From Limnohabitans sp. INBF002 (GTDB taxonomy: Bacteria; Pseudomonadota; Gammaproteobacteria; Burkholderiales; Burkholderiaceae_C), in NCBI RefSeq assembly GCF_027924905.1, contig NZ_AP027055.1:1612001-1676000 (forward strand): a stretch of 64,000 nt of DNA. Reading direction: 5' to 3'. The notes under the pieces were generated by a model that made no database searches, was not told where the DNA came from, and saw only the letters and a list, made by a program, of their open reading frames with translations. Below are positions 29,944-48,911 of the stretch, in pieces. Both the position numbers and the translations under genes were made by a program. The first letter of the stretch is position 1. Each line of letters begins with the position of its first letter.

Positions 29944-30821
29944 ATCAAGTCGCGCTTGGCTTCATCCCTGAACCCATGCTGGTTCAATTTGAAAAAATAC
30001 TCCCATCACGCAAATTACCGGGAAACATTGACGTCTCTCGAAAATACAAGCAGGTGCTCGAATCTATACGTTCGATAGGACTAATTGAACCTTTAACTCT
30101 TTGCTCGGCAACAACTGACTCAGGTATGCACATACTGCTTGATGGACACACTCGCCTTCATGCAATGCGAGAGCTTGGATTCACTGAGTCTCAATGTCTG
30201 CTAGCGACAGACGATGAGACCTACACATACAACAATAGGGTTAATCGACTATCAACTGTCCAAGAACATTTAATGATCAAGCGGGCTATAAATCGAGGAG
30301 TATCACCAGAAAAACTTGCAAAAAGTCTAAACATTGACCTTGGCAACATCATGAGAAAAGTTCGTTTACTTGACGGCGTTTGCACAGAAGCTGCTGAACT
30401 TTTAAGAGATCAAATTTTCTCAATAAAAATTGGCGGAATTCTTCGAAAAATGAAGCCAACTCGGCAAATTGAGTGCGTCGAATTAATGCTCTCTGCAAAC
30501 AACATTACGGTGACTTATGCGGAAGCACTTCTCGCCGCATCCCCTGCATCATTACTTACTGATGAACTTACGCCCAAAAAAATACGTGGCGTCAGTGCAG
30601 AGCAAATGGTCAAGATGGAACGAGAAATGGGAAATTTGCAAGAGCAGTACAAACTAGTAGAAGACTCATACGGGCAAGATGTGTTGAATCTCGTTCTTGC
30701 TAAAGGTTTTTTGGTCAAGTTGCTTGATAACCCAACAGCATCTAGATACATCAAACAATTTCAACCTGAAGTTCATGCCGAATTTGTCAACATCATTCAG
30801 ACTGATTCATTAGACAAATGA
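29940..30821 (+). CDS. ParB/RepB-like protein, second of two
   Basis: 293 residues from the ATG overlapping the previous stop. It has a ParB N-terminal domain with LLDGHTRLHAMRELGF (~66-81) and VNRLSTVQEHLMIKRA (~106), then a helix-turn-helix (SPEKLAKSLNIDLGNIMRKV) and a helical C-terminal domain resembling RepB partition proteins. The CTP-binding motifs diverge from those of the first ParB-like protein, suggesting a heteromeric pair with divided roles. It overlaps the following DUF3987 gene by 4 nt. Confidence 0.85.
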   Translation: MNQVALGFIPEPMLVQFEKILPSRKLPGNIDVSRKYKQVLESIRSIGLIEPLTLCSATTDSGMHILLDGHTRLHAMRELGFTESQCLLATDDETYTYNNRVNRLSTVQEHLMIKRAINRGVSPEKLAKSLNIDLGNIMRKVRLLDGVCTEAAELLRDQIFSIKIGGILRKMKPTRQIECVELMLSANNITVTYAEALLAASPASLLTDELTPKKIRGVSAEQMVKMEREMGNLQEQYKLVEDSYGQDVLNLVLAKGFLVKLLDNPTASRYIKQFQPEVHAEFVNIIQTDSLDK

Positions 30822-32173: not shown

Positions 32174-32348
32174 CCAAAAATTTCGCAAGGTTCGCACACG
32201 AAAAATCGTTATAAATCATTGATTGATAAATAATTTCGCTAGATTCTCAAACTTCGCATTTATGTACCACTCAGCTCAATCATTTACCCTAATGGCCATT
32301 ACACCACTAGCGATTATTTTGTACATGTGCTATCGGTGCTGCGCCATC

Positions 32349-32378
32349 TTTGTAGCGTTGCTTCTTCAAAAATTGGTG
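32349..32378. repeat. Short duplicate of the 3' end of the gene at 33104-33613
   Basis: 32349-32378 and 33113-33143 share about 27 of 31 positions (TTTGTAGCGTTG, TTCTTCA, GGTG blocks), and both encode FLKKQRYK on the minus strand. The left copy has no gene around it, so it looks like a remnant of a duplicated or rearranged gene end. The remainder of the 32174-32434 gap is AT-rich with no supported gene. Confidence 0.55.
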
Positions 32379-32434
32379 CTTTGTGTTGACGATTTCTCTT
32401 TCTAGTCGAGAAATCAGACCTACCTTTTCCCCAC

Positions 32435-32752
32435 TCAATCAGTAATGCCATGCTCCTTTAAGACATATTGAAGAGCTAGTTGAGAGTAGTCATCGCCAAC
32501 TCTTGGTGCAATCTTCCCTTCAAGTTCTAACTTTCGACCAAGCTCAGCCAGTTTAGTGTTGATTGGTATCAGCTGGTGCAGTGAAGCCATATAAGTGATT
32601 GACTGCGTTACGTCTATTGCAAACTTATCTAGCGGCTTTGTCTTGTCAGTCACCCCAGGCTCAGGACGAGCAACACCGTCTTTTTCGGATTGAAGTTTTT
32701 GACACAACTTGAGTAACTCAACACCAGTTTGAATTTTTTCTTCGTAGCTCAT
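32435..32752 (-). CDS. Hypothetical small helical protein
   Basis: 105 residues, acidic to neutral, predicted largely helical (YEEKIQTGVELLKLCQKLQSE). No signal peptide, membrane segment or recognised motif. It lies in a run of minus-strand genes that ends the AbiE region. The reading frame has a plausible start but no family I know. Confidence 0.6.
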   Translation of the reverse strand: MSYEEKIQTGVELLKLCQKLQSEKDGVARPEPGVTDKTKPLDKFAIDVTQSITYMASLHQLIPINTKLAELGRKLELEGKIAPRVGDDYSQLALQYVLKEHGITD

Positions 32753-32768
32753 TTTTATTCCTTAGTAT

Positions 32769-33056
32769 CTAACAGCCTTCAACCGCCACCAATCGCGCAG
32801 AACTACACTCGTCTCGGATTGCCTTTAGCCCTTGGTAAACAGGGCCATGATAGAAAGTTTCCCAAGCATCTATGGATGGGAACTCCAAGATCACGACTCG
32901 CCTTGGCTTCCAGTCACCTTCATAAATGCGGTGTTCACCGCCACGCGTCAAATACTTTGCCCCAGCTTCGGCAAGCGCTGGTTTAACTAGATTCATGAAA
33001 TCCTGGTATCGAACTGAATCACGAATTTCGACATCAAAAATTACATAGGCACTCAT
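32769..33056 (-). CDS. DUF1330 domain protein (island copy)
   Basis: 95 residues from the ATG giving MSAYVIFDVEIRD. The family hallmarks are AKYLTRGGEHRIYEGDWKP and VVILEFPSIDAWETFYHGPVY (both in part), including the conserved GG and the EFPS strand. It is a single ferredoxin-like domain of unknown function. It is paralogous to the chromosomal DUF1330 at 24838-25134 but clearly divergent, so it was not copied recently from it. Confidence 0.9.
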   Translation of the reverse strand: MSAYVIFDVEIRDSVRYQDFMNLVKPALAEAGAKYLTRGGEHRIYEGDWKPRRVVILEFPSIDAWETFYHGPVYQGLKAIRDECSSARLVAVEGC

Positions 33057-33103
33057 GCACACCTCACTTAAAAACAAATTTCAGCCGCACGAACTAACTG
33101 GAC

Positions 33104-33613
33104 TCAAGCATTTTTGTAGCGTTGTTTCTTCAGAAAATCGGTGAGCTTAACTAGATCACTAACCCATGGACCATCTTCAAATCTATGGACGGTCAGTTCG
33201 CATATATGTTTTACGCCGTATTCACGTCTGCGACCTTTCAAGCCGTAGTCGACTAGCACATCCATCACACACTTACCGTTGTGGATCACGTACATGACAT
33301 TGAATTTGGCGTAATCAGGAGCGTCATCAAAAGTTCCTGAACTCTTGTCACACACCACTAGTTGAATTCGTTGGCCACCTGTGTATCTGATGTTGCGCTG
33401 ATCTTCAATCTCATTGATCATCAAGCTTCTCTTCAAATCGGGCGCAATCCCTTTTGTATCTGTGAATGCATTTTCTGGAATCAAAACAGGCGTATTCAAA
33501 ATCCATGCAACGTTATCTGAAAATTTGTATGCTTCTAATTTTTCACGAAATGCACGCAACTCAGGGGGCAGTGTGGGTTCTGAAAAAAAGTAATCCATAT
33601 CCATAAGACTCAC
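33104..33613 (-). CDS. Hypothetical protein
   Basis: 169 residues, unrecognised. It begins MSLMDMDYFF and ends in a basic tail (FLKKQRYKNA). The middle has alternating strand-like segments (QRIQLVVCDKSSG; FNVMYVIHNGKCVMDVLVDYG in part). No signal peptide. It starts 4 bp after the AbiEii stop on the same strand, so it is probably part of the abiE transcript and may be an accessory to that module. Confidence 0.65.
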   Translation of the reverse strand: MSLMDMDYFFSEPTLPPELRAFREKLEAYKFSDNVAWILNTPVLIPENAFTDTKGIAPDLKRSLMINEIEDQRNIRYTGGQRIQLVVCDKSSGTFDDAPDYAKFNVMYVIHNGKCVMDVLVDYGLKGRRREYGVKHICELTVHRFEDGPWVSDLVKLTDFLKKQRYKNA

Positions 33614-33617
33614 CCAA

Positions 33618-34466
33618 CTAACCCTTCATTACAAAAGCAAATCGCTCACGAAGATAAATCACTGTGGCTGAAAGTGACTCCGCGTTCAATTTATTGCGGC
33701 CGACGAAAGCATCCCACAACGCGATGCGAGTTCTTCCTTGCGCGAATTGATCGCTCAGACCTACTGGGATCACTGTCGGCATCGCTGTCACTCTTCTGTT
33801 GAACGTCGCATGCACCGCTTGCTCAAGAATTTGCTGATCCAAGTCAGCATTTCGCAGCAACACCCACAAGTCAAAGTAATCCTTCATGCGGCTGTTAGCC
33901 ATACCCAGCGAAACAATCGCTTCAAACTTCTCCGCAATCACTGTGTACTGCGGATAGACACGCAACTCAGGTGCTGGCATGTCTTCGAGCATGACAGGGT
34001 ATATTGCCATTTCTGGCGCTGGCGTAACGGCATCACCATAGCCAACGTCAACTTGGACAGTACATTTAGCGCCGTCAATCGTGCCTACGACTGTCACTCG
34101 TGTGCCTGAGTAATTTGCGTCTTTGCGAATCTCTTCTGCAGTGATGCTTGCTGACTCAAAGTTGATACCGTCTTCGACTTGAATTGCGCATAAGTCTTCA
34201 AACACTTTGATGAGGTGTGGAATCTCTGCCATGCCAAAACCCAACAAGTCGATGTCGCGTGTTGGTCGTAGTGGCACGTCGTACCAAAGATCAAATAGCA
34301 AAGCCCCCTTGAGCAAGAAGCTGTCACGATGCTCAGACACAGCCAATCGATACAACATCCGCTCCAATGCGTAGCGCGTCAACAGGAACTGTGTATTGAC
34401 GTTATCTGCTTTGGCTTTATTGTTGATACGCGCTCGAACAGAAGCGCCAATGTTTTTCACCGTCAT
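33618..34466 (-). CDS. abiEii: AbiEii-family toxin (nucleotidyltransferase)
   Basis: 282 residues, a DUF1814-type nucleotidyltransferase and the toxin of the type IV AbiE system. The diagnostic motifs are FLLKGALLFDLWYD and PTRDIDLLGFG (DxD metal site, ~70-77), with the later KFEAIVSLGMANSRMKDYFDLW (in part, ~190) containing the conserved lysine and aspartates. Members modify tRNA or other targets to halt growth after phage infection. The start overlaps the AbiEi stop by 4 nt, as in typical abiEi-abiEii operons. Confidence 0.93.
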   Translation of the reverse strand: MTVKNIGASVRARINNKAKADNVNTQFLLTRYALERMLYRLAVSEHRDSFLLKGALLFDLWYDVPLRPTRDIDLLGFGMAEIPHLIKVFEDLCAIQVEDGINFESASITAEEIRKDANYSGTRVTVVGTIDGAKCTVQVDVGYGDAVTPAPEMAIYPVMLEDMPAPELRVYPQYTVIAEKFEAIVSLGMANSRMKDYFDLWVLLRNADLDQQILEQAVHATFNRRVTAMPTVIPVGLSDQFAQGRTRIALWDAFVGRNKLNAESLSATVIYLRERFAFVMKG

Positions 34467-35068
34467 ACCAAGCTCTCCATGTAGGGGCGCATGACGTTGG
34501 CAACTCGGCAGTGTTCAGCCGCTTGCCATAGCTCGTCCATCGTGACCTTCTTTTGCTGCCAAGCATCTCTCAGGGCTTCAAGTGCCACATCAAGCCCAAT
34601 CTTGTTTCTAAACTTGAAACAGTCTGCAATTGTCTTGGCGACATCCGTCACAGGGATTCGCACCACACCATCGACTGATGCTGTCTTAATGCCGTATTCC
34701 ACGTCACTCATACGCACGACATGCAGTGGCGGGTATTCAATGTTTGGAGCACGCGCCTTCTGACCAACAGCAACCCACACCTCATGTGGGGACTGCGTTG
34801 TTAGCCCGTGCAGCTGCAATGCGGTAAGCAAACAAAAAACCAAGCGCGGATACTTAATTGCAATTGGGCCCAGGTCGTCCAGCTCTGTCGGCTTACGCCC
34901 TGCTGGTGCGTAAACACCTCGGCCTACTTTGACCAAGCTGCCTGTCTTGAGGAGTTGCTGAAGAGTTCCCCCAGCTGCGCCGACTAGCGCCAGTTCACGC
35001 GCACGAACAAAGCCCTGCTTATTTGCAAGGTCGAGGGCTGGGTGTTGAGAGATCGGATGCATGCCCAT
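34463..35068 (-). CDS. abiEi: AbiEi-family antitoxin/autorepressor
   Basis: 201 residues. The N-terminal winged helix-turn-helix (~10-60; GFVRARELALVGAAGGTLQQLLKTG in part) is followed by the GVYAPAG turn. The C-terminal AbiEi domain (~75-195) has YPRLVFCLLTALQLHGLTTQ and VTDVAKTIADCFKFRNKIGLDVALEAL (in parts). It neutralises AbiEii indirectly and represses the operon. An operator palindrome overlaps the -35 box upstream. The promoter -10 box touches the first ATG, so the transcript is leaderless or starts at the second ATG (residue 3). Confidence 0.9.
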   Translation of the reverse strand: MGMHPISQHPALDLANKQGFVRARELALVGAAGGTLQQLLKTGSLVKVGRGVYAPAGRKPTELDDLGPIAIKYPRLVFCLLTALQLHGLTTQSPHEVWVAVGQKARAPNIEYPPLHVVRMSDVEYGIKTASVDGVVRIPVTDVAKTIADCFKFRNKIGLDVALEALRDAWQQKKVTMDELWQAAEHCRVANVMRPYMESLV

Positions 35069-35340: not shown

Positions 35341-35362
35341 TACTGAGCCCCTAATCTTGCGA

Positions 35363-35382
35363 TACTGTTCTTTCATACAGTA
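35363..35382. promoter_or_regulatory. LexA (SOS) box
   Basis: TACTGT-TCTTTCAT-ACAGTA matches the consensus CTGT-N8-ACAG perfectly and extends the symmetry by two bases on each side. It lies 11 bp before the umuD start and 23 bp before the divergent Cys-rich gene. Confidence 0.93.
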
Positions 35383-35392
35383 TAGTGCGCCC

Positions 35393-35833
35393 ATGCCAGT
35401 TTTGTCAATTTCAGCAGATCAACCAATTCAAATAAGCCCCAACAGCCTGTGGCTAGAGCTGTGCGGGTGGAAAGTATCCGCAGGTTTTCCCAGCCCTGCT
35501 GCCGATCACACTCAAAAACGAGTTGATCTCAACGATCACCTGATTCGCAATAAAGAAGCAACATTCCTCTTCCGTGTTCGCGGTGACTCTATGACGGGCG
35601 CTGGCATCTATGAAGGCGACACACTAGTAGTTGACCGCAGCATTGAGGCAAAGCACAACAGCATCGTTCTAGCCATCTTGAATGACGAGTTCACAGTCAA
35701 GCGACTTTATCGACGAGGCGGTGTTTTCAAACTGGTTGCAGAGAACCCCATCTACCCTCCCCGCGTCATCAAACCCGAAGAGGAGCTGACTATCTGGGGT
35801 GTAGTGACCTTTAACCTTCACAAGTTGTGCTGA
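35393..35833 (+). CDS. umuD: UmuD-like S24 peptidase, DNA polymerase V accessory subunit
   Basis: 146 residues from the ATG giving MPVLSIS. It has the self-cleavage region SAGFPSPA (Ala30-Gly31), catalytic serine in RGDSMTGAGI (Ser66) and catalytic lysine in FTVKRLY (Lys103). RecA-stimulated self-cleavage yields UmuD', which joins UmuC to make the mutagenic polymerase V. It sits directly after a consensus SOS box and overlaps the next gene by one base (TGATG), so the operon is damage-inducible. Confidence 0.96.
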   Translation: MPVLSISADQPIQISPNSLWLELCGWKVSAGFPSPAADHTQKRVDLNDHLIRNKEATFLFRVRGDSMTGAGIYEGDTLVVDRSIEAKHNSIVLAILNDEFTVKRLYRRGGVFKLVAENPIYPPRVIKPEEELTIWGVVTFNLHKLC

Positions 35834-36654
35834 TGGACAAACAGCCTGCACATCAAATCGACTCTCAAAGCTTGGATGCCCTGCCCCGTAGTGCAGGGGT
35901 TTACATCTTTCGTGGAGACGGCACGCTACCACTCTACATTGGTAAGAGCGTGGACATTCGCTCACGCGTGCTATCGCATCTGCGCACGCCAGATGAAGCA
36001 AGGATGATTGCTCAAACCAGAAGAATCGATTTCATAGAGACTGCTGGTGAGATTGGCGCTTTGTTGCTTGAAGCGCAAATGATCAAAACGCACAGCCCTT
36101 TGTTCAACATTCGATTGCGACGACTGAGGAACATGAACTCCATTCGTCTGACTCAAACTGAGACTGGTGCGAAACCTGAAATCGTCAGCAGTAAGGACAC
36201 AGAGATTGGACAGGTTGAAGGTCTCTACGGACTATTCAGCTCACAACGATCTGCGCAAGAACGACTGCGCGAATTAGCCATAGAGCACGAACTCTGTAAC
36301 GCGTTACTGGGCTTGGAGAAGCTAAGCAAGCGAGGTTGCTTTGGCCTGCAAATAAAGACATGCCGTGGCGCTTGCGTTGGACAGGAAGAGCGGCAAGTTC
36401 ATGACCAACGCCTGTTCTCTGCCTTGTTGGACATGAAAGTGCATGCTTGGCCCTATAAAGGCGCAATCGATTTGATAGAGCACACAGACGGGTGGACACA
36501 AAAGCACCGCGTACATAACTGGAGACACCTTGGCTCATGGTGCTCCAAAGCACAAAGCCATCTCGACTCCGCTCAGACGTCCTTTGATCTTGATACCTAC
36601 AAGATCCTCGTCAAGCCAATCATGCTGGGAACTGTCACTGTTGAAGAAGTATGA
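35833..36654 (+). CDS. cho: Cho-like excinuclease (GIY-YIG, UvrC homologue)
   Basis: 273 residues. The GIY-YIG endonuclease domain occupies ~15-105 (GVYIFRGDGTLPLYIGKSVDIRSRV in part; Glu in LLLEAQMIK). A UvrC-like Cys-containing region follows (RGCFGLQIKTCRGACVGQE in part, ~165-185). E. coli Cho makes a single 3' incision beside bulky lesions and is SOS-induced. Here the gene lies between umuD and umuC, overlapping both (1 nt and 4 nt), an arrangement that joins nucleotide-excision incision with translesion synthesis in one operon. Confidence 0.92.
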   Translation: MDKQPAHQIDSQSLDALPRSAGVYIFRGDGTLPLYIGKSVDIRSRVLSHLRTPDEARMIAQTRRIDFIETAGEIGALLLEAQMIKTHSPLFNIRLRRLRNMNSIRLTQTETGAKPEIVSSKDTEIGQVEGLYGLFSSQRSAQERLRELAIEHELCNALLGLEKLSKRGCFGLQIKTCRGACVGQEERQVHDQRLFSALLDMKVHAWPYKGAIDLIEHTDGWTQKHRVHNWRHLGSWCSKAQSHLDSAQTSFDLDTYKILVKPIMLGTVTVEEV

Positions 36655-37922
36655 AGCAGCAGCTCGCCTTGATCGATTGCAACAACTTCTATGTGAGTTG
36701 TGAAAGACTCTTTCGTCCAGACATCCGAAAGACTCCTGTCGTTGTACTGTCTAACAATGATGGATGCGTAGTCTCACGCTCCAATGAAGCCAAAGCCATT
36801 GGCATACGCATGGGACAGCCTTGGTTTGAATGCAAGGAACTGGCAAAAGAACATGGCGTTCTAGCCCTGAGCAGTAACTACGCTTTGTATGCCGACCTTT
36901 CCAACCGTGTGATGTCGATCTTGTCGACTTACTCACCAAGACACGAGGTTTACAGCATTGACGAGTGCTTTGTTGACCTGACAGGCACGGCCAAACTGAG
37001 GGATGTCAGTTACCAAATGCGCGAGCACGTCATTAACTGGTCTGGCATACCTGTATGTGTAGGCATTGGCCCAACAAAGACTTTGGCAAAGCTTGCAAAC
37101 TTTGTGGCCAAACGCCACCCACGATCTAAAGGCGTCTTCAACTACAACGATCTCAATGAACAGCGACAAGCCAAGTTACTAGGACAAATCACTGTGGATG
37201 AAGTCTGGGGCGTAGGCAGGCGAATTAGTAAACGGCTTGCAGAACACAACATACATACAGTCGAAGAACTGAGACATGCACACACTCCAACACTTCGCTC
37301 AGAGTTTGGCGTCGTAATGGAAAAAACTCAGCGCGAGCTACAAGGAATTGCATGCATTGATTTACAAGAAGTAGTGCCTGACAAGCAGCAAATCATCTCC
37401 AGTCGCTCATTTGGCAGCATGGTCCAGGATGTGGACGTACTCAAAGATGCCATGAGCACATTTGTAGCTAACGCATGTGCCAAGCTCAGAGCGCAGGAAT
37501 CTCATGCAGCATTGATACAAGTGTTCCTGCACACCAATCGGTTCCGCAAAGACTTGCCCCAGTACATGCCATGCCTAGCTATTCCACTGCCCTACCCGAC
37601 CAATGACAGCTTAGCGGTTAACAAGTGGGCCGGATTTTTAGTAGAGCAAATGTATAAGCCTGAGTACCAGTACAAAAAGGCTGGCATCGTGTTGAGTGAG
37701 ATCTCACCTGTCACTCACTATCAAGGTGACCTGCTAGCGCCTGAAATTACAGAGACTGGAAGCACTAAGCTGATGACTGCCATTGACCAGTTAAACCAAC
37801 GCTTTGGGCGCGGCGCGGTAAAGATATCAACACAAGGCGCTCACAAAGGGTGGCAGATGAAGCAGGAGAGAAAGTCACCTTGCTACACAACTAACTGGAA
37901 TGAGCTTCCACATGCCCAATGA
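36651..37922 (+). CDS. umuC: UmuC-like Y-family DNA polymerase (Pol V catalytic subunit)
   Basis: 423 residues, the normal length. The palm motifs are intact: ALIDCNNFYVSCERLF (Asp9) and YSIDECFVDLTG (Asp/Glu ~103), and the little-finger and DUF4113 C-terminal parts are present (~300-423). With UmuD' it bypasses lesions at low fidelity. It is the last gene of the SOS operon. The lower GC and accessory position suggest carriage by the mobile element rather than a native umuC. Confidence 0.96.
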   Translation: MKQQLALIDCNNFYVSCERLFRPDIRKTPVVVLSNNDGCVVSRSNEAKAIGIRMGQPWFECKELAKEHGVLALSSNYALYADLSNRVMSILSTYSPRHEVYSIDECFVDLTGTAKLRDVSYQMREHVINWSGIPVCVGIGPTKTLAKLANFVAKRHPRSKGVFNYNDLNEQRQAKLLGQITVDEVWGVGRRISKRLAEHNIHTVEELRHAHTPTLRSEFGVVMEKTQRELQGIACIDLQEVVPDKQQIISSRSFGSMVQDVDVLKDAMSTFVANACAKLRAQESHAALIQVFLHTNRFRKDLPQYMPCLAIPLPYPTNDSLAVNKWAGFLVEQMYKPEYQYKKAGIVLSEISPVTHYQGDLLAPEITETGSTKLMTAIDQLNQRFGRGAVKISTQGAHKGWQMKQERKSPCYTTNWNELPHAQ

Positions 37923-38418: not shown

Positions 38419-38808
38419 TTATCCTCGAACCATCACGAATGGCATAGCGCCAAAGACTCCCGAAATTTCATCATCTTTTGGGTATCCTAGTAAGGAAGCC
38501 TCATCCCAAACCTTGTCCATTAGCTCGACTTCGTGAGAAAAGCGTTTAACGATCTCTCTCGCAATCATCGTCTGAATAAATTTAACCAGCCTTGACTTGG
38601 CGCTATCCCTATCAAATCGAATACGCTGAACATCCAAATGCTCATTCAGATGGATAAGTGCAGAATTTGAAATTTTCAACCCTTGAGAGGTCACACTGCT
38701 CCAATAGCCATCACTCATTCCCATCGCCCGGCTGATAGACCTAACAGTCGTTTCAGGAAAAGCTTTGCACATAGCTCCATAGAGTTCTTCATCAAAATTG
38801 ATCATCAT
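38419..38808 (-). CDS. Putative helix-turn-helix protein
   Basis: 129 residues from the ATG preceded by AGGAGG. The segment TVRSISRAMGMSDGYWSSVTSQGLKIS (in part, ~20-50) has the spacing of a helix-turn-helix, followed by a helical tail (ALIHLNEHLDVQRIRFDRDSAK in part). A matching palindrome lies directly upstream and a half-copy of it covers the divergent gene's start, which supports autoregulation. The family is not recognised with certainty (DUF6626-like is possible). Confidence 0.7.
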   Translation of the reverse strand: MMINFDEELYGAMCKAFPETTVRSISRAMGMSDGYWSSVTSQGLKISNSALIHLNEHLDVQRIRFDRDSAKSRLVKFIQTMIAREIVKRFSHEVELMDKVWDEASLLGYPKDDEISGVFGAMPFVMVRG

Positions 38809-38820
38809 GACCTCCTCATT

Positions 38821-38898
38821 GCATAAAGTATTTATGCGCCGAAATGGACATCTCATGGTGTTACGAATTCACTCACGATTGGAATCGGCATAAATACT
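38821..38898. promoter_or_regulatory. Paired operator-like sites in the divergent promoter region
   Basis: GCATAAA-GTA-TTTATGC (38821-38837) is a perfect 7-bp-arm inverted repeat. Its 11-bp half GCATAAATACT recurs at 38888-38898, just before the plus-strand ATG at 38901. The two sites lie at the two ends of the divergent intergenic space, one before each gene, and could bind the helix-turn-helix protein encoded at 38419-38808. Confidence 0.65.
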
Positions 38899-38900
38899 GC

Positions 38901-39242
38901 ATGAAGACTTTCACCGCATTGATCAAGGCCACAGTCAACGGTAACGTTCGCGCTGTTCCAACTCAAATTACAGCGCAAAACTCTACGGATGCACGATGGC
39001 TACTACAGGCCATTTATGGTTTTCACGCACTGGTATCTGCTCCTACAGAGATTCATGAAGATAATGAGATCACTGAAATCATCCAACCTAAGACACCAGA
39101 ACAATTGCGATTGGACAACCTCAGGGCGGCCAAGGACAGAGCTAATGACGCACTAAAGATTGAGCGAAATAGGCAAGCCAAGCAGCGCGCAATTAAGACT
39201 CTCTCGAGCATCAACAATCCCAAAATTTCTTCAAACTTATAG
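38901..39242 (+). CDS. Hypothetical protein with basic C-terminal helix
   Basis: 113 residues. The N-terminal ~55 residues look like a small alpha/beta domain (FTALIKATVNGNVRAVPTQ; DARWLLQAIYG) of the kind often found in conjugative and integrative elements. The C-terminal part is a charged helix (LRLDNLRAAKDRANDALKIE). Function unknown. The start overlaps the edge of an operator-like site. Confidence 0.65.
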   Translation: MKTFTALIKATVNGNVRAVPTQITAQNSTDARWLLQAIYGFHALVSAPTEIHEDNEITEIIQPKTPEQLRLDNLRAAKDRANDALKIERNRQAKQRAIKTLSSINNPKISSNL

Positions 39243-39396: not shown

Positions 39397-40899
39397 CTAG
39401 ATGTAGACCGTTGATGAAAATTCACATCCTGCAGCCCTTCGCTCTGCATTTTCCAACCGTGCTTTATGCTCTGCCTCGTACAAAAGCACGTCCTTGCTCA
39501 CCGATGTGTACTTAAACAGCTGAGTAGACTCCAAACGCCAGTAGTGATTCATTGTTTTTTCTTGTATCTCCATCTCAATTTCACTCTTGAGATCAGCACC
39601 CAATCGGTTACGAAAAAAAACAGCGTCATGCACATTTGCCAGCGGTTTTCTTCCGTGGCTTGCCGCAACTTCACGCAGTACGTTCATGACCTGCGTTTCA
39701 CTTTGTTGGTAATAAAAAGCCAGGACTTTTGATTTACTCAATCGCCCGCTTGAAGTCTGAAGGAACGGACTTGTCAAGATATCGCCTGCGTCATTTTGAA
39801 AGTGGTTGAATATGTAGTTATCCAAACAATTCTGCTCCTGTATGAACTTGCGTATCGTTGCGTCTCCTAGGAATCTCTTGCGCTCCTCGGAATTCTTAAT
39901 GATGTCAACAAGTGCAGAATTTTTCCATGCTCCAGTCATGTCGTACCACCCTGTTGTAGTAGCTCTGGCACCAAAACTGATCGCTGTGACAGCTGCCTTG
40001 AGCAGCTTAGTCTGTAATTCTTTTGGAACATTGGTGCCCTCCAAAAAAGTGAAGTGCCGCATCGTCCGCATGAAGTCTGCTTTATCTTCCAAATAACCCG
40101 TTGTTACAGAAAATGCTTCACGCACAGTACGACCGTCCTGATTAGCCGCAAGAACACTTTTGGCAAAGCCCATCTTCCAACTAATCACACTAGATCGAAT
40201 GTCATACTCCCAGCAATCACCCAAGATAGCACTACGTAGCTGTTTATTCACGTTTTGAATACTGGTGCCTTCGTAGTAAATGCGACCAAAGAAGCTGGGC
40301 CTCTTTCGTTGGTAGTACCAGCCACCTTCACTAATTGCAGTTGCCAATATGGTTCGCGCCTGCCTAAGCGCCAAGGATTTGCTCTCAACTTTCATCAAGC
40401 TTGACTCATCAGTAAGCCATTGAATGTAGGCTTGCAATGACTTTTGATTGACTTGCAAGGCATCGTACTCATCAGGACTCCAACGTTCTGCAGTATTCAT
40501 ACACCCAGATACAGCAACACTTAGCGGCTCTTCGAGCTCATCCCATTCTTCTGTCATCACCACTAGTTCCGTCAACTTAACATCGGAGATTTTTCCTGTC
40601 AGATTTGATCCTTGCGTAACTGTTCGCACCAGCTCTAAACCGTTTTCCCTAAGCCACGCATGCACACGCTTTCGGTTTTCGCCAATCTGCCCACCTAAAT
40701 TTGCCAAACGTTGTAATGAAATGCTGTATGCGCCTAACTTTCTCTGCACAGGGCTTTGCCCATGCATAAGCGCCTGACACACCAACCCCTCCAAAGTTTT
40801 TACATATTTAGCTAAAGCTCTTTTGGCCGAATTTTTAGGAAGCGGAAATGCCGCAGCCAAGGCCTGCTCAACTTCAGGCCGAACATTAATCTTGATCAT
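39397..40899 (-). CDS. Family A (Pol I/T7-like) polymerase-domain protein, no exonuclease
   Basis: 500 residues. The C-terminal ~300 residues carry, in order, the blocks of a family A polymerase. Pre-motif A is FGRIYYEGTSIQNV (~204-217), like TGRL...NLQNI. Motif A is EYDIRSSVIS (Asp233). Motif B is KAAVTAISFG (Lys301, Phe309, Gly310), matching K-x7-(Y/F)-G. The Q-helix is YYQQSETQVMNVLREV (~397), and motif C is NVHDAVFF (His424, Asp425). Lys301 to Asp425 is 124 residues, the same as in E. coli Pol I (758 to 882). Motif C has HDA instead of HDE. The first ~190 residues are helical and match neither the 5' nuclease nor the 3'-5' exonuclease domain. DNA polymerase, primase-like or single-subunit RNA polymerase activity is an inference. 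RBS GGGGG precedes the ATG. Confidence 0.8.
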   Translation of the reverse strand: MIKINVRPEVEQALAAAFPLPKNSAKRALAKYVKTLEGLVCQALMHGQSPVQRKLGAYSISLQRLANLGGQIGENRKRVHAWLRENGLELVRTVTQGSNLTGKISDVKLTELVVMTEEWDELEEPLSVAVSGCMNTAERWSPDEYDALQVNQKSLQAYIQWLTDESSLMKVESKSLALRQARTILATAISEGGWYYQRKRPSFFGRIYYEGTSIQNVNKQLRSAILGDCWEYDIRSSVISWKMGFAKSVLAANQDGRTVREAFSVTTGYLEDKADFMRTMRHFTFLEGTNVPKELQTKLLKAAVTAISFGARATTTGWYDMTGAWKNSALVDIIKNSEERKRFLGDATIRKFIQEQNCLDNYIFNHFQNDAGDILTSPFLQTSSGRLSKSKVLAFYYQQSETQVMNVLREVAASHGRKPLANVHDAVFFRNRLGADLKSEIEMEIQEKTMNHYWRLESTQLFKYTSVSKDVLLYEAEHKARLENAERRAAGCEFSSTVYI

Positions 40900-41082: not shown

Positions 41083-41349
41083 TCAAACTAACGTAACTTG
41101 ATATTCTTCGCCGTCTTTGTAGGTATCCTGCATTTGATCAGGTTTGCAGTTACTAAGTAGACTGAAGATGATATCTTCCAGGCCATCGTTCTGAATTGCA
41201 TTGACAAAATCAACAGGCGTTGATGCATTAGATAGATCAATATCGTAGTTGGTCAATAATAAATTGATCAAATCGTTTGTGGATTTTTGATCCAATTCAA
41301 AGCTGCAGCTAGTAACAACAACTGTCTCACGCTTAACAGTAAATTTCAT
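41083..41349 (-). CDS. Hypothetical small protein
   Basis: 88 residues from the ATG giving MKFTVKRETVVV. Strand-rich N-terminus followed by acidic helical segments (STNDLINLLLTNYDIDLSNA in part). No recognised family. It is upstream of the polymerase-like gene on the same strand, 184 bp away. Confidence 0.55.
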   Translation of the reverse strand: MKFTVKRETVVVTSCSFELDQKSTNDLINLLLTNYDIDLSNASTPVDFVNAIQNDGLEDIIFSLLSNCKPDQMQDTYKDGEEYQVTLV

Positions 41350-41499
41350 CCTCTTTGCTCCTAGAAAAAAATTAAAAATTTCCAACACGGACGACCATAA
41401 AGCATAGCCAATACCAATTGGCTAGCTATCCGCACTTAATGCATTGGAACATTGCTCCAATGCATTAGCGCAAGTAATATGCTCTTGTAATTTGTACTG

Positions 41500-42081
41500 T
41501 CAACCAAGTAAGCTCTGCTTAAGTCTCATACTATCACGCACAATCTTTGAAGAGCTAGCGCCGTTGAATTCTTCCACCATGCTCTCGTTGCCTTCTTTAA
41601 AGAATGAGATTCGACTTACCCAACCCTGCGGGGTCAACTGCTGCAGTGTTGAATTGTTAATTAACAATCGTCGTGATGCAATCGCCCATAAATCGACACG
41701 ATCACCAACTTTTTTGGCTGTTAACTCAAGAGTTTTTCCATAAGGTGTCCTCACGAGCTTGTTACGTTGATAACTGCCATACCAAGCTTTAATTTCTGGA
41801 TGTTTGTCGAAATCAAATGCAAATCGCCATATTCCACCCAAATATTTAGCAACTTTTAAATGATCTACTGGCGCCCGACTTTTTAATTGATTAATTAAAC
41901 TCGTTTCTGGCAACTCAGGAATCATCGGTAATGCACTAGTCGGATATGAATCTTCCTTAGTTAGCCAAACCAAATTTTCATTCGGCAAACCCACGATCGC
42001 GGGAGCAATTGCATTAATTTCTTGGTTCAAAATAATTGAACCAACTTTATAACCCTTTGTATAATGATATACTTTTTTCAT
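41500..42081 (-). CDS. Hypothetical protein with ADP-ribosyltransferase-like N-terminus
   Basis: 193 residues from the ATG preceded by AAGGA. The N-terminus KKVYHYTKGYKVGSIILNQEI and the later LVWLTKEDSYPTSAL recall the His-Tyr-Thr pattern at the start of DarT-like and other small ADP-ribosyltransferases (HxT ... xxIL ... G). No matching catalytic glutamate was identified with confidence. Such proteins can be toxins or phage-defence effectors. No antitoxin partner is obvious; the 92-residue gene upstream (42178-42456) is the only candidate. Unproven. Confidence 0.6.
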   Translation of the reverse strand: MKKVYHYTKGYKVGSIILNQEINAIAPAIVGLPNENLVWLTKEDSYPTSALPMIPELPETSLINQLKSRAPVDHLKVAKYLGGIWRFAFDFDKHPEIKAWYGSYQRNKLVRTPYGKTLELTAKKVGDRVDLWAIASRRLLINNSTLQQLTPQGWVSRISFFKEGNESMVEEFNGASSSKIVRDSMRLKQSLLG

Positions 42082-42177
42082 TTTCAATCCTTAATTTAAA
42101 AAACTCAAATATTTGAGCAACTCCATACTCTGGCATCGCTTCAATTTACTTAATTAACAGGTTAGTTTGTTACCAAC

Positions 42178-42456
42178 TTAATCATTGGAAAGTATCACAG
42201 CCAAATCATGAATCCAATCATGAATGTTATTTCTAATATGATCTCTCATCTCTTCTTTTGCACTATATAAATAGTCATTACAATCATTTTCTAGCGCAAT
42301 ACTCAGCTCATCAATTAATGCTTGCTCCCTAGCGCAATCAGGATCAACCTGCAAAAGTACATCATTTCCAGCACTGCAAAACCCTTTATGTTTGGCAAAT
42401 GCTGACTTTGTTTGATCACTAATTTCAATTTCTCTACCCAATATCTCTATTTTCAT
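42178..42456 (-). CDS. Hypothetical acidic small protein
   Basis: 92 residues with a good ribosome binding site (AAGGAGT). It starts MKIEILGREIEISDQ (strand-rich), then becomes helical and acidic (IDELSIALENDCNDYLYS). Acidic and small, so it could be an antitoxin for the 41500-42081 product, 96 bp downstream on the same strand, but nothing beyond adjacency supports this. Confidence 0.6.
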   Translation of the reverse strand: MKIEILGREIEISDQTKSAFAKHKGFCSAGNDVLLQVDPDCAREQALIDELSIALENDCNDYLYSAKEEMRDHIRNNIHDWIHDLAVILSND

Positions 42457-42754: not shown

Positions 42755-43489
42755 ATGATTACAGATGAAGAACTTGGCAGATTGAAGGCGATTCCCCGAT
42801 CATTCAGAAAACCACTACCCTCGGAAGAAGAAGCTCGCGAAGTTGAAGGGAGCCTTTATCACATGTGGTGGCGCTGTCTGCGAGCAAGTAGCAAGTACTT
42901 GGAATGTTGCGAAGTGGAAGGTCGTAACCACGCACTTTCCCAAACCTACGCAAACTTTGGAGATGTGCGGGTTAAATGGCCCATATGGTGGAGACGTACG
43001 GGAAGAGTTATCTTTAGTGAGCGACATGACTACCCGAAGGTTCGCGCAATCACCAAAGACAGAGCACTTACAAAACTGAATGTGGAATCCGAGAGCTTTC
43101 TGATCTTGGATGTTCCCTTGGGACTACGTAGGACAACCGTCCTTGAGCAGATCAATAAACTACTAGATGAACATCACCCAGGTCGTGATTTAGATGTCTG
43201 GGCTCAAAGCACTGCGAAGGTCAAACTTCATAAGAGCAAGTTACATGAGAAAACTTTGCCACAGTTAGTACTTGTAGCCGAGATCCTGCACAAGAAACCT
43301 GAGATCTTGTTATATGAACTTGCAGAAGTTGCTGGACTAGCTGAAATTCATCTTGGTCGATCTGTACAAGAAGAATTAACCAAGAGAGAGGAACATCAAC
43401 GCAGAGAAATGGCTGCAAGCAGATATAAAGACCAAGCCAATAAACTTGTTATAAATGCAGCTCACGGCCGATTTCCGTGCATTGATTAG
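42755..43489 (+). CDS. Hypothetical protein of integrative elements
   Basis: 244 residues. The N-terminal half is rich in tryptophan and arginine (LYHMWWRCLRASSKYLECCEVEG in part; FGDVRVKWPIWWRRTG). A charged helical C-terminal half follows (EELTKREEHQRREMAASRYKDQ in part). No signal peptide. I recognise this general layout from hypothetical proteins of integrative elements in Beta- and Gammaproteobacteria, without known function. Confidence 0.7.
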   Translation: MITDEELGRLKAIPRSFRKPLPSEEEAREVEGSLYHMWWRCLRASSKYLECCEVEGRNHALSQTYANFGDVRVKWPIWWRRTGRVIFSERHDYPKVRAITKDRALTKLNVESESFLILDVPLGLRRTTVLEQINKLLDEHHPGRDLDVWAQSTAKVKLHKSKLHEKTLPQLVLVAEILHKKPEILLYELAEVAGLAEIHLGRSVQEELTKREEHQRREMAASRYKDQANKLVINAAHGRFPCID

Positions 43490-43903: not shown

Positions 43904-44263
43904 TCAATACTCGCTGGGCAACATGATCACCCAGTGCTCACCGTCCCAACAGGCGTACAAAGTAATACCCTGCATCGGAAAGTCTGTATAAGGGATCTGT
44001 TGACGAGCATGCTCTTTGCCGTTTCCATCCTCGTAGTACATGGTTGCCTTGCTGTTCTTCACTGTCATACGCACTTGAACAAACCAGTCCTGTGTCCCAA
44101 TTTCGGACAGATGGCTTGCAATCGCATCCATCATCCAGAAGCACTCAGCCTCTTCAGCCAGATACTTGGTGCCATCTGTGAGCAAGTGTCTGCGACTGAT
44201 TCGGTAATAGCCCGTTGTGCCAATAAATTGCGTAAGTTGGGTTGAGTCAAATTTCTTTTTCAT
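43904..44263 (-). CDS. DUF6876-type small protein
   Basis: 119 residues. FIGTTGYYRISRRHLLTDGTKYLAEEAECFWMMDAIASH (in parts) followed by a strand-rich C-terminus (WVIMLPSEY) is a layout I associate with the DUF6876 family of plasmids and integrative elements. Function unknown. Its ribosome binding site (GGAGG) lies at the end of a 22-codon reading frame that stops 1 bp before its ATG, suggesting translational coupling. Confidence 0.75.
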   Translation of the reverse strand: MKKKFDSTQLTQFIGTTGYYRISRRHLLTDGTKYLAEEAECFWMMDAIASHLSEIGTQDWFVQVRMTVKNSKATMYYEDGNGKEHARQQIPYTDFPMQGITLYACWDGEHWVIMLPSEY

Positions 44264-44264
44264 T

Positions 44265-44333
44265 TCACGCCTCCAACTTAGCCAACTCAGCTTGTCTATT
44301 GACTTGCTCTTTTGTATAACTATCCATTTGCAT
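44265..44333 (-). CDS. 22-codon reading frame coupled to the DUF6876 gene
   Basis: MQMDSYTKEQ... through ...LAKLEA, 22 residues, with GAGGAC a few bases upstream and its stop overlapping the leader of the next gene (GTGAAATG). It could be a small protein or a leader peptide that controls translation of the downstream gene. Confidence 0.35.
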   Translation of the reverse strand: MQMDSYTKEQVNRQAELAKLEA

Positions 44334-44905
44334 GTCCTCTGTTGTTTGTGTAACTACAGTTTGTTTTCAGACGCACAGATGGACAACCGAAAAATTGGTA
44401 ACCCGATAACTTGGACGGGTACCGAGTAAAAAACACCAGGGGTTGAAAAATCCGATTTCAAAATTTTTCGCAACCCAGAAATTTTGGGATGCAAGACCCA
44501 TTCGGGCAGCAGTTGCAAACCGCACTACTTTCAAAATTTCTCTCATATCTAGCAAATTTCTACGCGTTAAAACGCCCTACAGCACGTCGATTTCTGAGCC
44601 CGAATACTTTGAGTGCTGAGAACCCAGATCAGCGCTTGTAGGGCTTTCTATGCAACCTGCGCTGGTTATCCACAGCTCGCGTGAGTTATCCAAAAAAAAT
44701 CACGAAAAATGCTGCTTTTAATAGATTTCAAAGTTTGGGCGTTGAAATCATTGAAGAAAAAAACCGCTAAAAAGTTATCCACAGTCAGTTCGTTTCGCCC
44801 TGCTCCAGCTCAGAAACCCGACAGTTTGGACGGACTCAGGTTGTCCAGATAAATATATGAAAACACAATGCAATTAACGCAAACACATGATTTAGGAGAG
44901 ACGAA
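44334..44905. other. Gene-free region with DnaA boxes: possible replication origin of the element
   Basis: Within 570 bp lacking a supported gene there are two perfect DnaA boxes TTATCCACA (44666-44674, 44775-44783) and one near-match TTATCCAAA (44686-44694). They are separated by A/T-rich sequence with runs of A. CCCTACA and TGTAGGG flank a ~70-bp segment just before the first box. This is compatible with a plasmid-type origin retained after integration. No Rep gene of a classical family is adjacent; the polymerase-like and DUF3987 genes are in the same island. Confidence 0.5.
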
Positions 44906-45478
44906 ATGGCACAAGCAAAAACACTCACAGCATCAAAACTGGATCAACTACTGAACTACATCAATACGCGCAAGTACGCAGCCCGTAACAGAAGCATGAT
45001 GCTGCTAACGCACTGGGCAGGTTTGCGTATTGGTGAAGTTGCTTGTTTACGCTGGTGCGATGTCACAACCACAGACGGAAAAATTAAAGATGAGATCCGC
45101 TTGCTGCCCGACATGACCAAGGGCCGTCACGCTCGTACTGTGTTTATAAATGCCAAGCTAAAATCTGAATTGCAAGCCTACGCAGCACAAACAAAGTGTG
45201 TAGATCGTAGTTACCCATTTTTTGCAAGCCAAAAAAGCGTCAAGGCAGGATTTAGCGCAAACAGCTTGTCACAAACATTTGCCCTGCTGTACGAGGGTGC
45301 TGGGCTTGAGGGCGCAAGCAGTCACAGTGGGCGCAGAACGTTTCTTACAAACCTTGCCAACAAGGGTACAGCAATTCATTTGCTCAAAACGCTTGCTGGT
45401 CACCGCAGCATCCAAACCACTGCCACTTACCTGTACAGCAGCCCCGCGCAGCTGCGCGCTGTTGTTGAGTTAGCCTAA
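44906..45478 (+). CDS. Catalytic-domain-only tyrosine recombinase
   Basis: 190 residues, only the C-terminal catalytic domain of a phage-type integrase. The active site is complete: Arg in AGLRIGEVACLRW (~41), Lys in MTKGRHART (~73), His-x-x-Arg in SSHSGRRTF (~140), His in LAGHRSIQTT (~164) and Tyr in ATYLYSSP (~173-175). The N-terminal core-binding and arm-binding domains are absent, as in FimB/FimE and some small transposon recombinases. RBS is AGGAGAG. It could act on the attachment sites of the island or invert or resolve DNA. Confidence 0.93.
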   Translation: MAQAKTLTASKLDQLLNYINTRKYAARNRSMMLLTHWAGLRIGEVACLRWCDVTTTDGKIKDEIRLLPDMTKGRHARTVFINAKLKSELQAYAAQTKCVDRSYPFFASQKSVKAGFSANSLSQTFALLYEGAGLEGASSHSGRRTFLTNLANKGTAIHLLKTLAGHRSIQTTATYLYSSPAQLRAVVELA

Positions 45479-45895: not shown

Positions 45896-47158
45896 TTACG
45901 TGATCAATAAACGATGAATTTGTTCGCATGCAACCCTGATGCCATCTTCTAGTGTGAAAGATTGCGCACTGTCTCTTAACTTTCCATCAGTTTTTTTAGA
46001 GTCAGACAACACGCTCAACACACCCGCAAGTAGTTCATCTTCGGATAGCTTTTTAAAAGGTAAGACTTCTGCAACACCGATTTTTTGAGCCCTTACTGCT
46101 TGGTCAAATTGATCTAGTGTTCTAGGAAGAATCAAACTTGGTTTACCAGCAGCAATCACCTGCATAAGCGTTGCCACGCCTCCGTGATGCACCACGCATT
46201 GACATGCCCTAAAGAGCACTGAGTAATCAGCAAAGCTACACACATGTACAGGCATTGATTGGCCAAAATTTAATGGGACACCCTCGCGCTTTATGAGTAC
46301 AGCCCTCACACCAAGCTTTGCAATTACCTTGAGAGCCAAGTCATAAAAATCTTGTGGGTCCACCCTAGCAACAGAACCTAATGTAAAAACAACAGGTGCC
46401 GGACCAGATGCCAAAAAATGTTCAAGGCCTACATCGTGAGTCTGATGCGCTACACGGATCGTTTCTTTCACGAAACCACACTGAACCGTCTTCGCAGGCC
46501 AATCAGCTTGAGGTTTAGCCAGCAACGGCGAGAACAAAGCCAAGTTCAACCAAGGTGAGTAACGCCCTGCAAACAAGGGGTGTTGATGGGACAACCCAAG
46601 CTCTTGCTCTATCTGGCGGTAATCCACATAAATCACGTCTGATAGTTTTAAGAAAAACCACCGTAAGACAGCTTTCCACCAATTTGGCAGCACCGAGTCT
46701 TTGCCTAGCCAGCGCAAGCCATGCAAATAAGGTGGGTCTGTGAATGAGATATACGCCATCGGCGACACACCCGAAAAGACCCAAGGCTTGCCCAGCGCAC
46801 GTGCAACTAATGGCGCAGCCAAACTGGTTTGAGAACCAATAATCAAGTCAAAGCTAGGAGCCAACCTTTGAATGCATGCCACTTCTTCGCGTAGGTGCCA
46901 ACCAAGCTTGCGAAGCACTTTCAAACTTCCCAAAAGGCTTTGCGATAAACCTTTAAAAGCTTTTGTGTTTTGCGCATCAGCATCTTGGCCAACATCAAAT
47001 GCCACGCATTCAATGCCTTGTTTTTTCACAACGCCTAAATTTGAAGCATTCACAACCATCAAGACCTGATGACCGTTTTTTTGCAGACCATGCGCAAGGG
47101 CGATGTATGGCAGTACATCTCCCAAAGAGCCGCGTGTACAAATCAGAATTTTTGACAA
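45896..47158 (-). CDS. GT1-family glycosyltransferase (MGT/UGT type)
   Basis: 420 residues with a GT-B fold. The N-terminal Rossmann motif is CTRGSLGDVLPYIALAHGLQ (in part, ~8-25). The C-terminal nucleotide-sugar-binding region is CVVHHGGVATLMQVIAAGKPSLILP (in part, ~345-370), with the His-Gly-Gly typical of sterol, flavonoid, macrolide and glycolipid glucosyltransferases. It transfers a sugar from a UDP- or TDP-sugar to a small lipophilic acceptor. Neighbouring P450s and the hydrolase suggest the acceptor is an oxygenated lipid or isoprenoid. Not coupled to the preceding gene (23-bp gap) but on the same strand. Confidence 0.9.
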   Translation of the reverse strand: MSKILICTRGSLGDVLPYIALAHGLQKNGHQVLMVVNASNLGVVKKQGIECVAFDVGQDADAQNTKAFKGLSQSLLGSLKVLRKLGWHLREEVACIQRLAPSFDLIIGSQTSLAAPLVARALGKPWVFSGVSPMAYISFTDPPYLHGLRWLGKDSVLPNWWKAVLRWFFLKLSDVIYVDYRQIEQELGLSHQHPLFAGRYSPWLNLALFSPLLAKPQADWPAKTVQCGFVKETIRVAHQTHDVGLEHFLASGPAPVVFTLGSVARVDPQDFYDLALKVIAKLGVRAVLIKREGVPLNFGQSMPVHVCSFADYSVLFRACQCVVHHGGVATLMQVIAAGKPSLILPRTLDQFDQAVRAQKIGVAEVLPFKKLSEDELLAGVLSVLSDSKKTDGKLRDSAQSFTLEDGIRVACEQIHRLLIT

Positions 47159-47181
47159 AGGGTTGCTTTAACTGCTGAGCA

Positions 47182-47526
47182 TCAAAAAATGGTTTGGCTG
47201 TCGAGCTTGGATTTGCGAATCAAGTCCACCACCGGCTGCTCCCGCTTGTTCGCGCGCTGGCAGTGGCCCGGTTGAAACTTATCGGTAATGCGAATCACCA
47301 CTTTCGCCCAGCGCTTGTCGCGCTCACGCCACGCATGAGAAGAAATCGATTCCCATGCGTAGCCATTAAAAATAGTTGCATTCACAAAGTTATCCATTGC
47401 ACGAACACCTGCACGTCCTCGTGAATTAGGTCCGAAAATACCAATCCAAACAAGAATCCAATAACCAAAAACGGCTAAAGGGATCAACGCGCACAGAAGA
47501 ATAAAGCCAACCGCCCTCTCCCTCAT
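47182..47526 (-). CDS. Small single-pass membrane protein
   Basis: 114 residues. One strong N-terminal membrane helix (AVGFILLCALIPLAVFGYWI, ~5-24, possibly a second at 25-33) precedes a soluble, basic part with NATIFNGYAWESISSHAWRE and a C-terminal HCQR. This ISS..R...HC layout is reminiscent of small phage or prophage membrane proteins, but I can name no family. It overlaps the P450 stop by 4 nt, so it is co-translated with it; anchoring or electron-transfer support of the P450s is possible but unproven. Confidence 0.7.
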   Translation of the reverse strand: MRERAVGFILLCALIPLAVFGYWILVWIGIFGPNSRGRAGVRAMDNFVNATIFNGYAWESISSHAWRERDKRWAKVVIRITDKFQPGHCQRANKREQPVVDLIRKSKLDSQTIF

Positions 47527-48911
47527 ACAGCTTCGCTTCGTCTATGTAGCTTCAGCCGCACCCCGTTCGCTGAACGAATCGTCAAACGCCCCACAGGTTG
47601 TGGCTCGTGCTCTGGCAAGGCTGAAATCCGGTAGTCACGTACCAAGCTTGCCAAGATCAACGTCGCCTCTTGCAACGCAAAGGCCGCGCCCATGCAGACC
47701 CTCGGCCCCATGCCAAACGGCAAGTAGGCTTGCTTCAATGACTCGCGTGAAGCGTCGTTGTCATAACGATCGGGGTTAAACACATCAGGGTCATCCCACA
47801 ACTCACGGTGTCGCTGAATGAGCCATGGCGACACCACCACTGTCGCCCCCTGCTCTACCGTCTTTTTGCGCATGGGGCATACAGAAGTAGATTGCCTAGC
47901 CATGAACCCCACAGGCGGAAACAGGCGTAAGGTTTCTCTGAACACATTGCGCACCAAGTCTAGGTAGCGCATGTCTGACAGCTCGGGCTGCCTATCTGCC
48001 AAATGCATCACCACATCTTGGTGCATGCGCTCTTGTATATCGGGTGCGTTGGCCATCAAATAAGCAGCCCAGGTTAAGGCGCTGGCCGAAGTTTCGTGCC
48101 CTGCTAAAAACAACATAGCCACTTGGTCTAGCAACTCTTCAAAGCTAAAACCCTCGCCTGATACTTCATCTTTGGCATCTAAAAACGATTGCAAGATGTC
48201 TGTGGTGTGATTCGGCTTAGCTGCACGGTGCGCATCAAAGCGCGGGCGAATCAGTTGCCCTAACAACCCGCGAATGGCAGCTGCCGCACGCCGACTGCGC
48301 CAAACATCCCAAGGCCACACCAACCAACGCAGCCCGTAGATAGACGGCAGCATCAGCCGAGGCGCAATGGCCTGAAACCTTGCAAACTCTGTGAAGATGC
48401 GCTTGGCATCAGCGCCCTCCATGGGCACCGAAAAAATAGTGCGAAAGATAATGTCTGCCGTCACATGCGTCATCTCAACTTCTAGGTCGTACTCCGCCCC
48501 ATCTGGCAAAGCAGACAAACGCGTCAGCATGTCACCAACCGCTGCTTGCATCACTGGAAAAGCCACATTAAGGCGCGCCTGTGCAAATGCGGGGTCCATC
48601 ATGTTGCGTTGCTTGCGCCATTGGTCACCCGATGTCGTAAAGATGCTTTCTCCCAACAAAGGCTTCAAGGCCTCACCTAGCAAATTGCTTTTAGGGAAAG
48701 CCTCAGCCTGCGTGTCCATCACCTGCTTCACCAAAGTAGGTTCGTTCACCATGTAAAGGTCTAAGCCAGGTAAGTGCACCTCGCCCATGCGCATGCGGTA
48801 GCTGCGCTCATACAAGGCATCCAGCCACGAACGTCTGGCGCTGAAAAACATCAGCAAGGCTGAAGCCTTGCTTTGGCGAGGCTTGGGGTACACAGGGCAA
48901 AAATGGCGCAT
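47523..48911 (-). CDS. Cytochrome P450, downstream copy
   Basis: 462 residues from the ATG overlapping the preceding P450 stop (TGATG). I-helix oxygen-binding motif LAGHETSASALTW (~260), K-helix ExxR in FRETLRLFPP (~315), and haem loop PFGMGPRVCMGAAFA (Cys ~405) are intact. No membrane anchor is visible. It is a close relative of the adjacent P450 and probably arose by tandem duplication. It likely hydroxylates a lipid, fatty acid or terpenoid; the redox partner is not encoded nearby. Confidence 0.95.
   Translation of the reverse strand: MRHFCPVYPKPRQSKASALLMFFSARRSWLDALYERSYRMRMGEVHLPGLDLYMVNEPTLVKQVMDTQAEAFPKSNLLGEALKPLLGESIFTTSGDQWRKQRNMMDPAFAQARLNVAFPVMQAAVGDMLTRLSALPDGAEYDLEVEMTHVTADIIFRTIFSVPMEGADAKRIFTEFARFQAIAPRLMLPSIYGLRWLVWPWDVWRSRRAAAAIRGLLGQLIRPRFDAHRAAKPNHTTDILQSFLDAKDEVSGEGFSFEELLDQVAMLFLAGHETSASALTWAAYLMANAPDIQERMHQDVVMHLADRQPELSDMRYLDLVRNVFRETLRLFPPVGFMARQSTSVCPMRKKTVEQGATVVVSPWLIQRHRELWDDPDVFNPDRYDNDASRESLKQAYLPFGMGPRVCMGAAFALQEATLILASLVRDYRISALPEHEPQPVGRLTIRSANGVRLKLHRRSEAV

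Follow-up and report, generated by a model that had tools for sequence, protein, structure and literature searches.

To our knowledge, primases fall into two classical families, with a few exceptions carried by mobile elements. The TV-Pols, found in Sputnik V13, Microcystis phage Ma-LMM01 and bacterial mobile elements, are predicted prim-pols with a hairpin arginine, two palm aspartates, an RxxxK signature in a fingers helix and a thumb formed by a two-helix coiled coil; they have a fused or neighbouring D5-like helicase or an all-helical N-terminal domain, and standalone members are described as well (Iyer, Abhiman & Aravind 2008, PMC2579912). De novo DNA priming has been demonstrated for CcPol-MP of SCC elements, a PolA-SSB primase (PMC7581432, PMC10061031), whose polymerase CcPol keeps E710 and F762, the ribonucleotide-exclusion residues of Escherichia coli Pol I (Bebel et al., PMC7581432). 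A minimal, divergent family A palm is also found in divPolA2, from large lytic phages that have a regular polymerase in addition (PMC11348598), while pipolins are integrative elements with the self-priming polymerase piPolB (PMC7385651).

The window analysed here, a 64-kb stretch of DNA from Limnohabitans sp. INBF002, encodes on its minus strand a 500-residue protein that we term POL (Table 1). A first-pass annotation had recognized in it five blocks of the family A palm and fingers, and all five are present in the right order in an ORF at the stated coordinates: the pre-motif A block F204-GRIYY...SIQN, the motif A block YDIRSS containing D233, motif B, a helix with Q398, and V423-H424-D425-A426 at motif C. 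Motifs B and C are separated by 124 residues, the spacing already likened to that of Pol I and recovered exactly in the host's own Pol I (124), while motifs A and B are 68 residues apart versus 53 in Pol I. Searches of Pfam, PHROGs, NCBIfam and PDB sequences with POL gave no meaningful match. The Pol I family PF00476 was not detected in the Pfam search, the host polA being located elsewhere, and the family searches returned no nuclease domain, as the annotation had said of the exonucleases. In the profile–profile comparison that it had proposed, POL aligns in register with both Pol I and T7 RNA polymerase, but the scores are weak (E 0.16 and 0.026, respectively), so the argument for a polymerase rests on the fold and on motif specificity. 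An ordered pattern with loose spacings, GR..Q..D..K-x7-[FY]G..HD, recovers 48 of the 49 family members and has no match in 20,000 shuffles. Among 284 other ORFs of at least 400 residues it picks out 27, each of them a bona fide Pol I or T7-type RNA polymerase; its weakness is that it was composed after the POL sequence was known.

Table 1. Features of the POL gene and its element, in window coordinates.
Feature	Coordinates	Strand	Evidence or remarks
UmuD-type/UmuC-type SOS genes adjoining the element	35357..37922	(+)	Peptidase_S24 3.9e-33; UmuC-type read from sequence
O145, small conserved gene after O132	38419..38856	(-)	4 POL loci: L040, L076, L089, L091
O132, small gene facing POL, downstream side	38844..39242	(+)	BLAST matches in 23 POL loci
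POL, family A-like polymerase, 500 aa	39397..40899	(-)	ORF with ATG start; AF2; Foldseek; 37-sequence alignment
POL domains			N-terminal ~1-140; thumb helices ~152-190; R206 beta-hairpin; palm/fingers 219-461
Motif C, H424-D425-A426 codons	39622..39630	(-)	H and D in 37/37, A in 36/37; turn of predicted hairpin 421-429
Motif B, K301-x7-F309-G310, O-helix equivalent	39970..39999	(-)	K301, T305, F309, G310 in 37/37
Motif A, catalytic Asp233 codon	40201..40203	(-)	37/37 invariant; end of predicted strand 229-235
Three small genes in the DUF6876-POL interval (101, 195, 92 aa)	41083..42456	(-)	195-aa gene common to L040
O244, conserved accessory gene, opposite strand	42755..43489	(+)	Related ORF in 17 POL loci; 86% identical in L040
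DUF6876 gene	43904..44263	(-)	PF21781 2e-32; adjoins INT190 in most elements; 22 loci in clustering
Conserved intergenic region, candidate origin or recombination site	44264..44905	(.)	Aligns across 17 other elements
INT190, tyrosine recombinase, 190 aa, outward-facing, element edge	44906..45478	(+)	PF00589 7e-24

An AlphaFold2 model built from a 12-sequence alignment (pLDDT 82, pTM 0.60) supports a family A-type right-hand polymerase fold for POL. The 50 best PDB matches listed by Foldseek are all family A DNA polymerases (top E 5.4e-7, probability 1.00), with modest TM-scores of 0.29–0.41 over the query, in line with the fold match that the annotation had named as support. The predicted DSSP elements follow one another in an order that fits the family A palm: R206 lies in a beta-hairpin spanning residues 194–209 (strands 194–201 and 207–209), motif B occupies helix 293–308 and the residues F309-G310 just past its end, Q398 sits within helix 389–414, and D233 and the H424-D425 pair fall on the expected strand and hairpin. 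Two further helices (152–164 and 171–190) are predicted in the thumb region, and the N-terminal region is modeled as mixed alpha/beta, with a putative winged-helix, DNA-binding-like domain at residues 58–117. Among the viral models of BFVD, the top matches are uncharacterized proteins of uncultured Caudovirales (4.6e-29, 24% identity, TM 0.73); three uncharacterized phage proteins are structural relatives of POL, and virophage replication proteins resemble it too (Zamilon V6BPG7, 3.3e-8; Qinghai Lake virophage).

POL is a real, conserved family. Relatives were found in nine other genomes of the same genus (101 searched), and the family occupies 55 loci in a collection of species-representative genomes, mostly in freshwater Burkholderiales (Limnohabitans). 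The hosts comprise Limnohabitans, other Comamonadaceae, Oxalobacteraceae, Alcaligenaceae, Polynucleobacter and Methylococcales, along with one MAG each of Thiosymbion and Bacteroidetes. In IMG/VR, a relative with 30% identity lies on a single contig (L095); records of isolate phages and plasmids gave no match, and in a phylum-wide sample of 398 genomes POL was found only in the window's own genome. Some strains hold multiple copies, for example four in G053. Despite a family identity range of 30 to 62%, R206, Q215, R222, D233, S236, K242, K301, T305, F309, G310, A311, E355, Q356, Q398, E401, H424 and D425 are invariant in all 37 aligned sequences. The replacement of HDE by HDA at motif C, seen earlier in the single sequence, proves to be family-wide, the third residue being alanine in all but one of the 37, which has cysteine. 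Pairwise dN/dS values of about 0.03–0.09 indicate strong purifying selection. Some copies are broken by insertion sequences, of the IS3 type in L037:8900-10130 and of the IS21 type in L092:450-4080, and POL is therefore not essential to the host cell. These interruptions were also considered as introns, a reading that we rejected because the inserted ORFs look like transposases.

Like the TV-Pols, POL is a standalone, minimal, nuclease-free family A-like protein of ~500 residues that resides in mobile elements with integrases or resolvases. The hairpin arginine (R206) and the two palm aspartates (D233 and D425) are kept throughout the aligned family, and the Zamilon and other virophage matches of the model point in the same direction. 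The RxxxK signature is not conserved, however, as K301 is invariant but an arginine at position −4 occurs in just 3 of 37 sequences. The N-terminal domain is predicted to be mixed alpha/beta rather than all-helical, and no helicase or primase gene, D5 type included, was recognized among the neighbours scanned, a difference that is not decisive given the standalone TV-Pols described. In the MAP_030 protein of Ma-LMM01, which we take to be that phage's TV-Pol, the motifs are closely similar (KTAVLAVINGAR/HDG versus KAAVTAISFGAR/HDA in POL), and a profile comparison with POL is in register, with a weak E value of 0.05.

With CcPol-MP, POL shares an exonuclease-less family A polymerase in an integrative element, usually with a small gene after the polymerase. 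The two differ in that CcPol closely resembles Pol I, retaining E710 and F762, where POL has V/A/I and T. PolA-SSB elements use large serine recombinases, whereas POL elements use tyrosine recombinases, and no helicase of the COG3378/DUF927 type was recognized among the scanned POL neighbours; the DUF3987 gene of the window (30818-32173) has no match in POL loci. DUF6641, a recurrent gene of INT190 elements (L040:8639-9109 and homologues), was considered as an MP-like OB-fold SSB partner and is not supported in that role, its confident model (pLDDT 89) having no significant Foldseek match in the PDB and the gene being absent from the window. In divPolA2 we find the same lack of an exonuclease, an N-terminal domain of its own and a similar GRMY...IQN...YDF block, but no significant similarity to POL (hhalign E 0.16); its motif C reads FDE, not HDA, and Glu stands where POL has V/A/I at the E710 position. 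Pipolins offer a working analogy, as integrative elements with a tyrosine recombinase and their own polymerase, although that polymerase belongs to family B. Because an RxxxK signature, a D5 or COG3378 helicase and an OB-fold partner were not found, we file POL under neither the TV-Pols nor the PolA-SSB primases. By analogy of working, it would plainly be a polymerase of their kind, and a new branch. The initial description of POL as an undescribed family is supported but needs qualifying, since the analogous TV-Pols, PolA-SSB primases and phage divPolA were already known.

Site-specific recombinases are encoded at most POL loci that have enough flank. In the main clade, the order is integrase, conserved intergenic region with DnaA boxes, DUF6876, cargo and polymerase; in its fuller form, an outward-facing INT190 is followed by an intergenic region of ~640 bp, DUF6876, cargo, POL, usually DUF6641, and further genes. 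The window presents INT190, DUF6876, O244 with the small genes, POL, O132 and O145, and its element lacks DUF6641 and INT461, a second tyrosine recombinase that marks the far end of POL elements in 13 loci. A third type, c7, occupies that end in 12. INT461 adjoins tRNA-Asn in six of its loci and tRNA-Val or tRNA-Lys in two. INT190 is present in 25 POL loci with identities of up to 91%, and its median identity (75%) exceeds that of POL (48%), the two being correlated (rho 0.51); this higher conservation is consistent with modular exchange. A search for the precise boundaries of the element in the window did not locate them; strong synteny with the chromosomes of relatives extends to ~25.5 kb. 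Repeats of tRNA-Asn were rejected as ends of the POL element, as they bound a small c7-integrase unit instead. This unit has an intact tRNA-Asn on one side and the 5′ half of that tRNA, directly repeated, on the other (L049:18911-20663, L060:18365-20018, L077:17650-19861), the repeat measuring 38 bp, or 21+16 bp in L049.

The intergenic region between DUF6876 and INT190 is 71–84% identical at the nucleotide level in other genomes. It holds the DnaA boxes that had been noticed at the outset, two perfect copies of TTATCCACA at 44666-44674 and 44775-44783 and the only two in the window, together with AT-rich tracts and a flanking inverted motif, TGGACAACC / GGTTGTCCA. The box at 44775 is kept in nearly all of the 17 aligned elements. 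Upstream of INT190, at least one perfect box is found in 18 of 23 POL-bearing loci versus 7 of 23 listed loci without POL, the latter seven including the window's own shortened element and several incomplete contigs. Because the distribution of the boxes tracks the INT190 clade, their association with POL is not independent.

On balance, we think it probable that POL is the minimal, template-directed polymerase of family A fold of a tyrosine-recombinase element, priming and/or extending replication of the excised element. The element would be excised by its own recombinase, and host DnaA, and through it DnaB, would open the DnaA-box region beside the integrase gene. POL, guided by its DNA-binding-like N-terminal domain, would then make and/or extend primers without proofreading, and host Pol III and ligase would complete the replication, allowing the element to copy itself independently of the chromosome. 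Support comes from the family A motifs, the predicted fold, conservation, purifying selection, recombinase linkage and the conserved DnaA-box region, as well as from the association of POL with INT190, DUF6876, other integrases and tRNA genes across loci and from the known or predicted activity of the analogues CcPol-MP and TV-Pols; from this base we infer activity, substrate, winged-helix binding, excision and use of the DnaA-box region as an origin.

POL could instead serve as a polymerase for repair, bypass or defence that travels with UmuDC as cargo and takes no part in element replication. The SOS polymerase genes reported nearby do adjoin the element as UmuD-type (peptidase S24) and UmuC-type genes, probably themselves cargo, and such genes also occur within the L056 and L060 elements; most POL loci, however, are without UmuDC. 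Cargo varies between elements and extends, as read from gene sequences, to RND-type efflux and type I restriction–modification-like genes, and POL is retained in 55 loci despite these changes, its place with respect to INT190, DUF6876 and DUF6641 staying the same. INT190 elements without POL also exist, some of them carrying DUF6641, and no replacement replicase appeared among 10 large ORFs scanned in them. POL is therefore one module among several, and, with no helicase partner recognized, the cargo reading keeps a minor share of the probability; we consider it unlikely. As an example of the cargo observed, L049 and L056 carry what we judge to be a TolC/RND-type efflux cluster in the interval between the integrase side and POL.

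The substrate of POL bears on a further alternative, a single-subunit RNA polymerase that, in the manner of T7 RNA polymerase, would start from promoters of its own to transcribe the element's genes. The position of Pol I E710 is occupied by V, A or I (33, 3 and 1 of 37) and that of F762, T305 in POL, by threonine throughout. Motif C lacks the second carboxylate, as does the HDS of T7 RNA polymerase, motif B (K-x7-[FY]G) is common to both enzymes, and the weak profile match to T7 RNA polymerase is in register at motif C. The motif spacings of T7 RNA polymerase (94 residues from A to B and 181 from B to C, versus 68 and 124) nevertheless depart from those of POL, no RNA polymerase appears among the 50 PDB matches listed, and a search of the element for multicopy promoter-like repeats found none. 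Position 309, moreover, is phenylalanine in all 37 sequences, where T7 RNA polymerase has Tyr639. The substitution Y639F in T7 RNA polymerase leads to loss of sugar discrimination. Both the spacing of the motifs and the structural matches speak for a DNA polymerase, and we regard an RNA polymerase as quite improbable. A catalytically dead fold acting as a DNA-binding or structural replication initiator is more improbable still, for although the second acidic residue of motif C and the RxxxK arginine are absent and, in PolA-SSB pairs, some of the Pol-like members no longer have their catalytic residues (PMC10061031), both metal-binding aspartates, the motif B lysine, the hairpin arginine and the glutamine of the Q-helix are kept in 37/37 under strong purifying selection.

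For a priming and extending POL, replacement of E710, F762 and the motif C glutamate, together with F309, leads to the testable prediction of a relaxed sugar choice. With both Pol I ribonucleotide-exclusion residues replaced, use of ribonucleotides is plausible, and putative NTP use fits primer-making. More tentatively, these loci may represent a hitherto unrecognized family of freshwater integrative elements, equipped with a DnaA-box origin of their own and with a family A polymerase that primes itself and uses both NTPs and dNTPs, sugar discrimination having been lost; if so, this family of NTP/dNTP primase-polymerase elements would be the family A counterpart of pipolins. As a widespread, unannotated family A-like polymerase with neither exonuclease domains nor the motif C glutamate nor either exclusion residue, POL would offer a natural system in which to study how DNA polymerases, RNA polymerases and primases diverged from one another. 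It likewise identifies a class of islands found repeatedly in Limnohabitans and in other bacteria abundant in lakes, with INT190, DUF6876, DUF6641 and the DnaA-box region as candidate partners.

Several further features surround the element. A second UmuD/UmuC-like region of the same genome (G000:C1:888887-890689) is 67–78% identical in DNA to the window copy. At 27473-35068, a serine recombinase, two ParB/RepB-like genes and the DUF3987 gene are followed by an AbiE-type toxin–antitoxin pair; the recombinase, ParB/RepB and DUF3987 module (27.5–32.2 kb) has no matches in POL loci, and the region is probably a second mobile element beside that of POL. Adjoining the element, the stretch 45896-58108 encodes glycosyltransferases, two cytochromes P450, a capsule-synthesis gene and a methyltransferase, and is possibly a glycan or secondary-metabolite locus.
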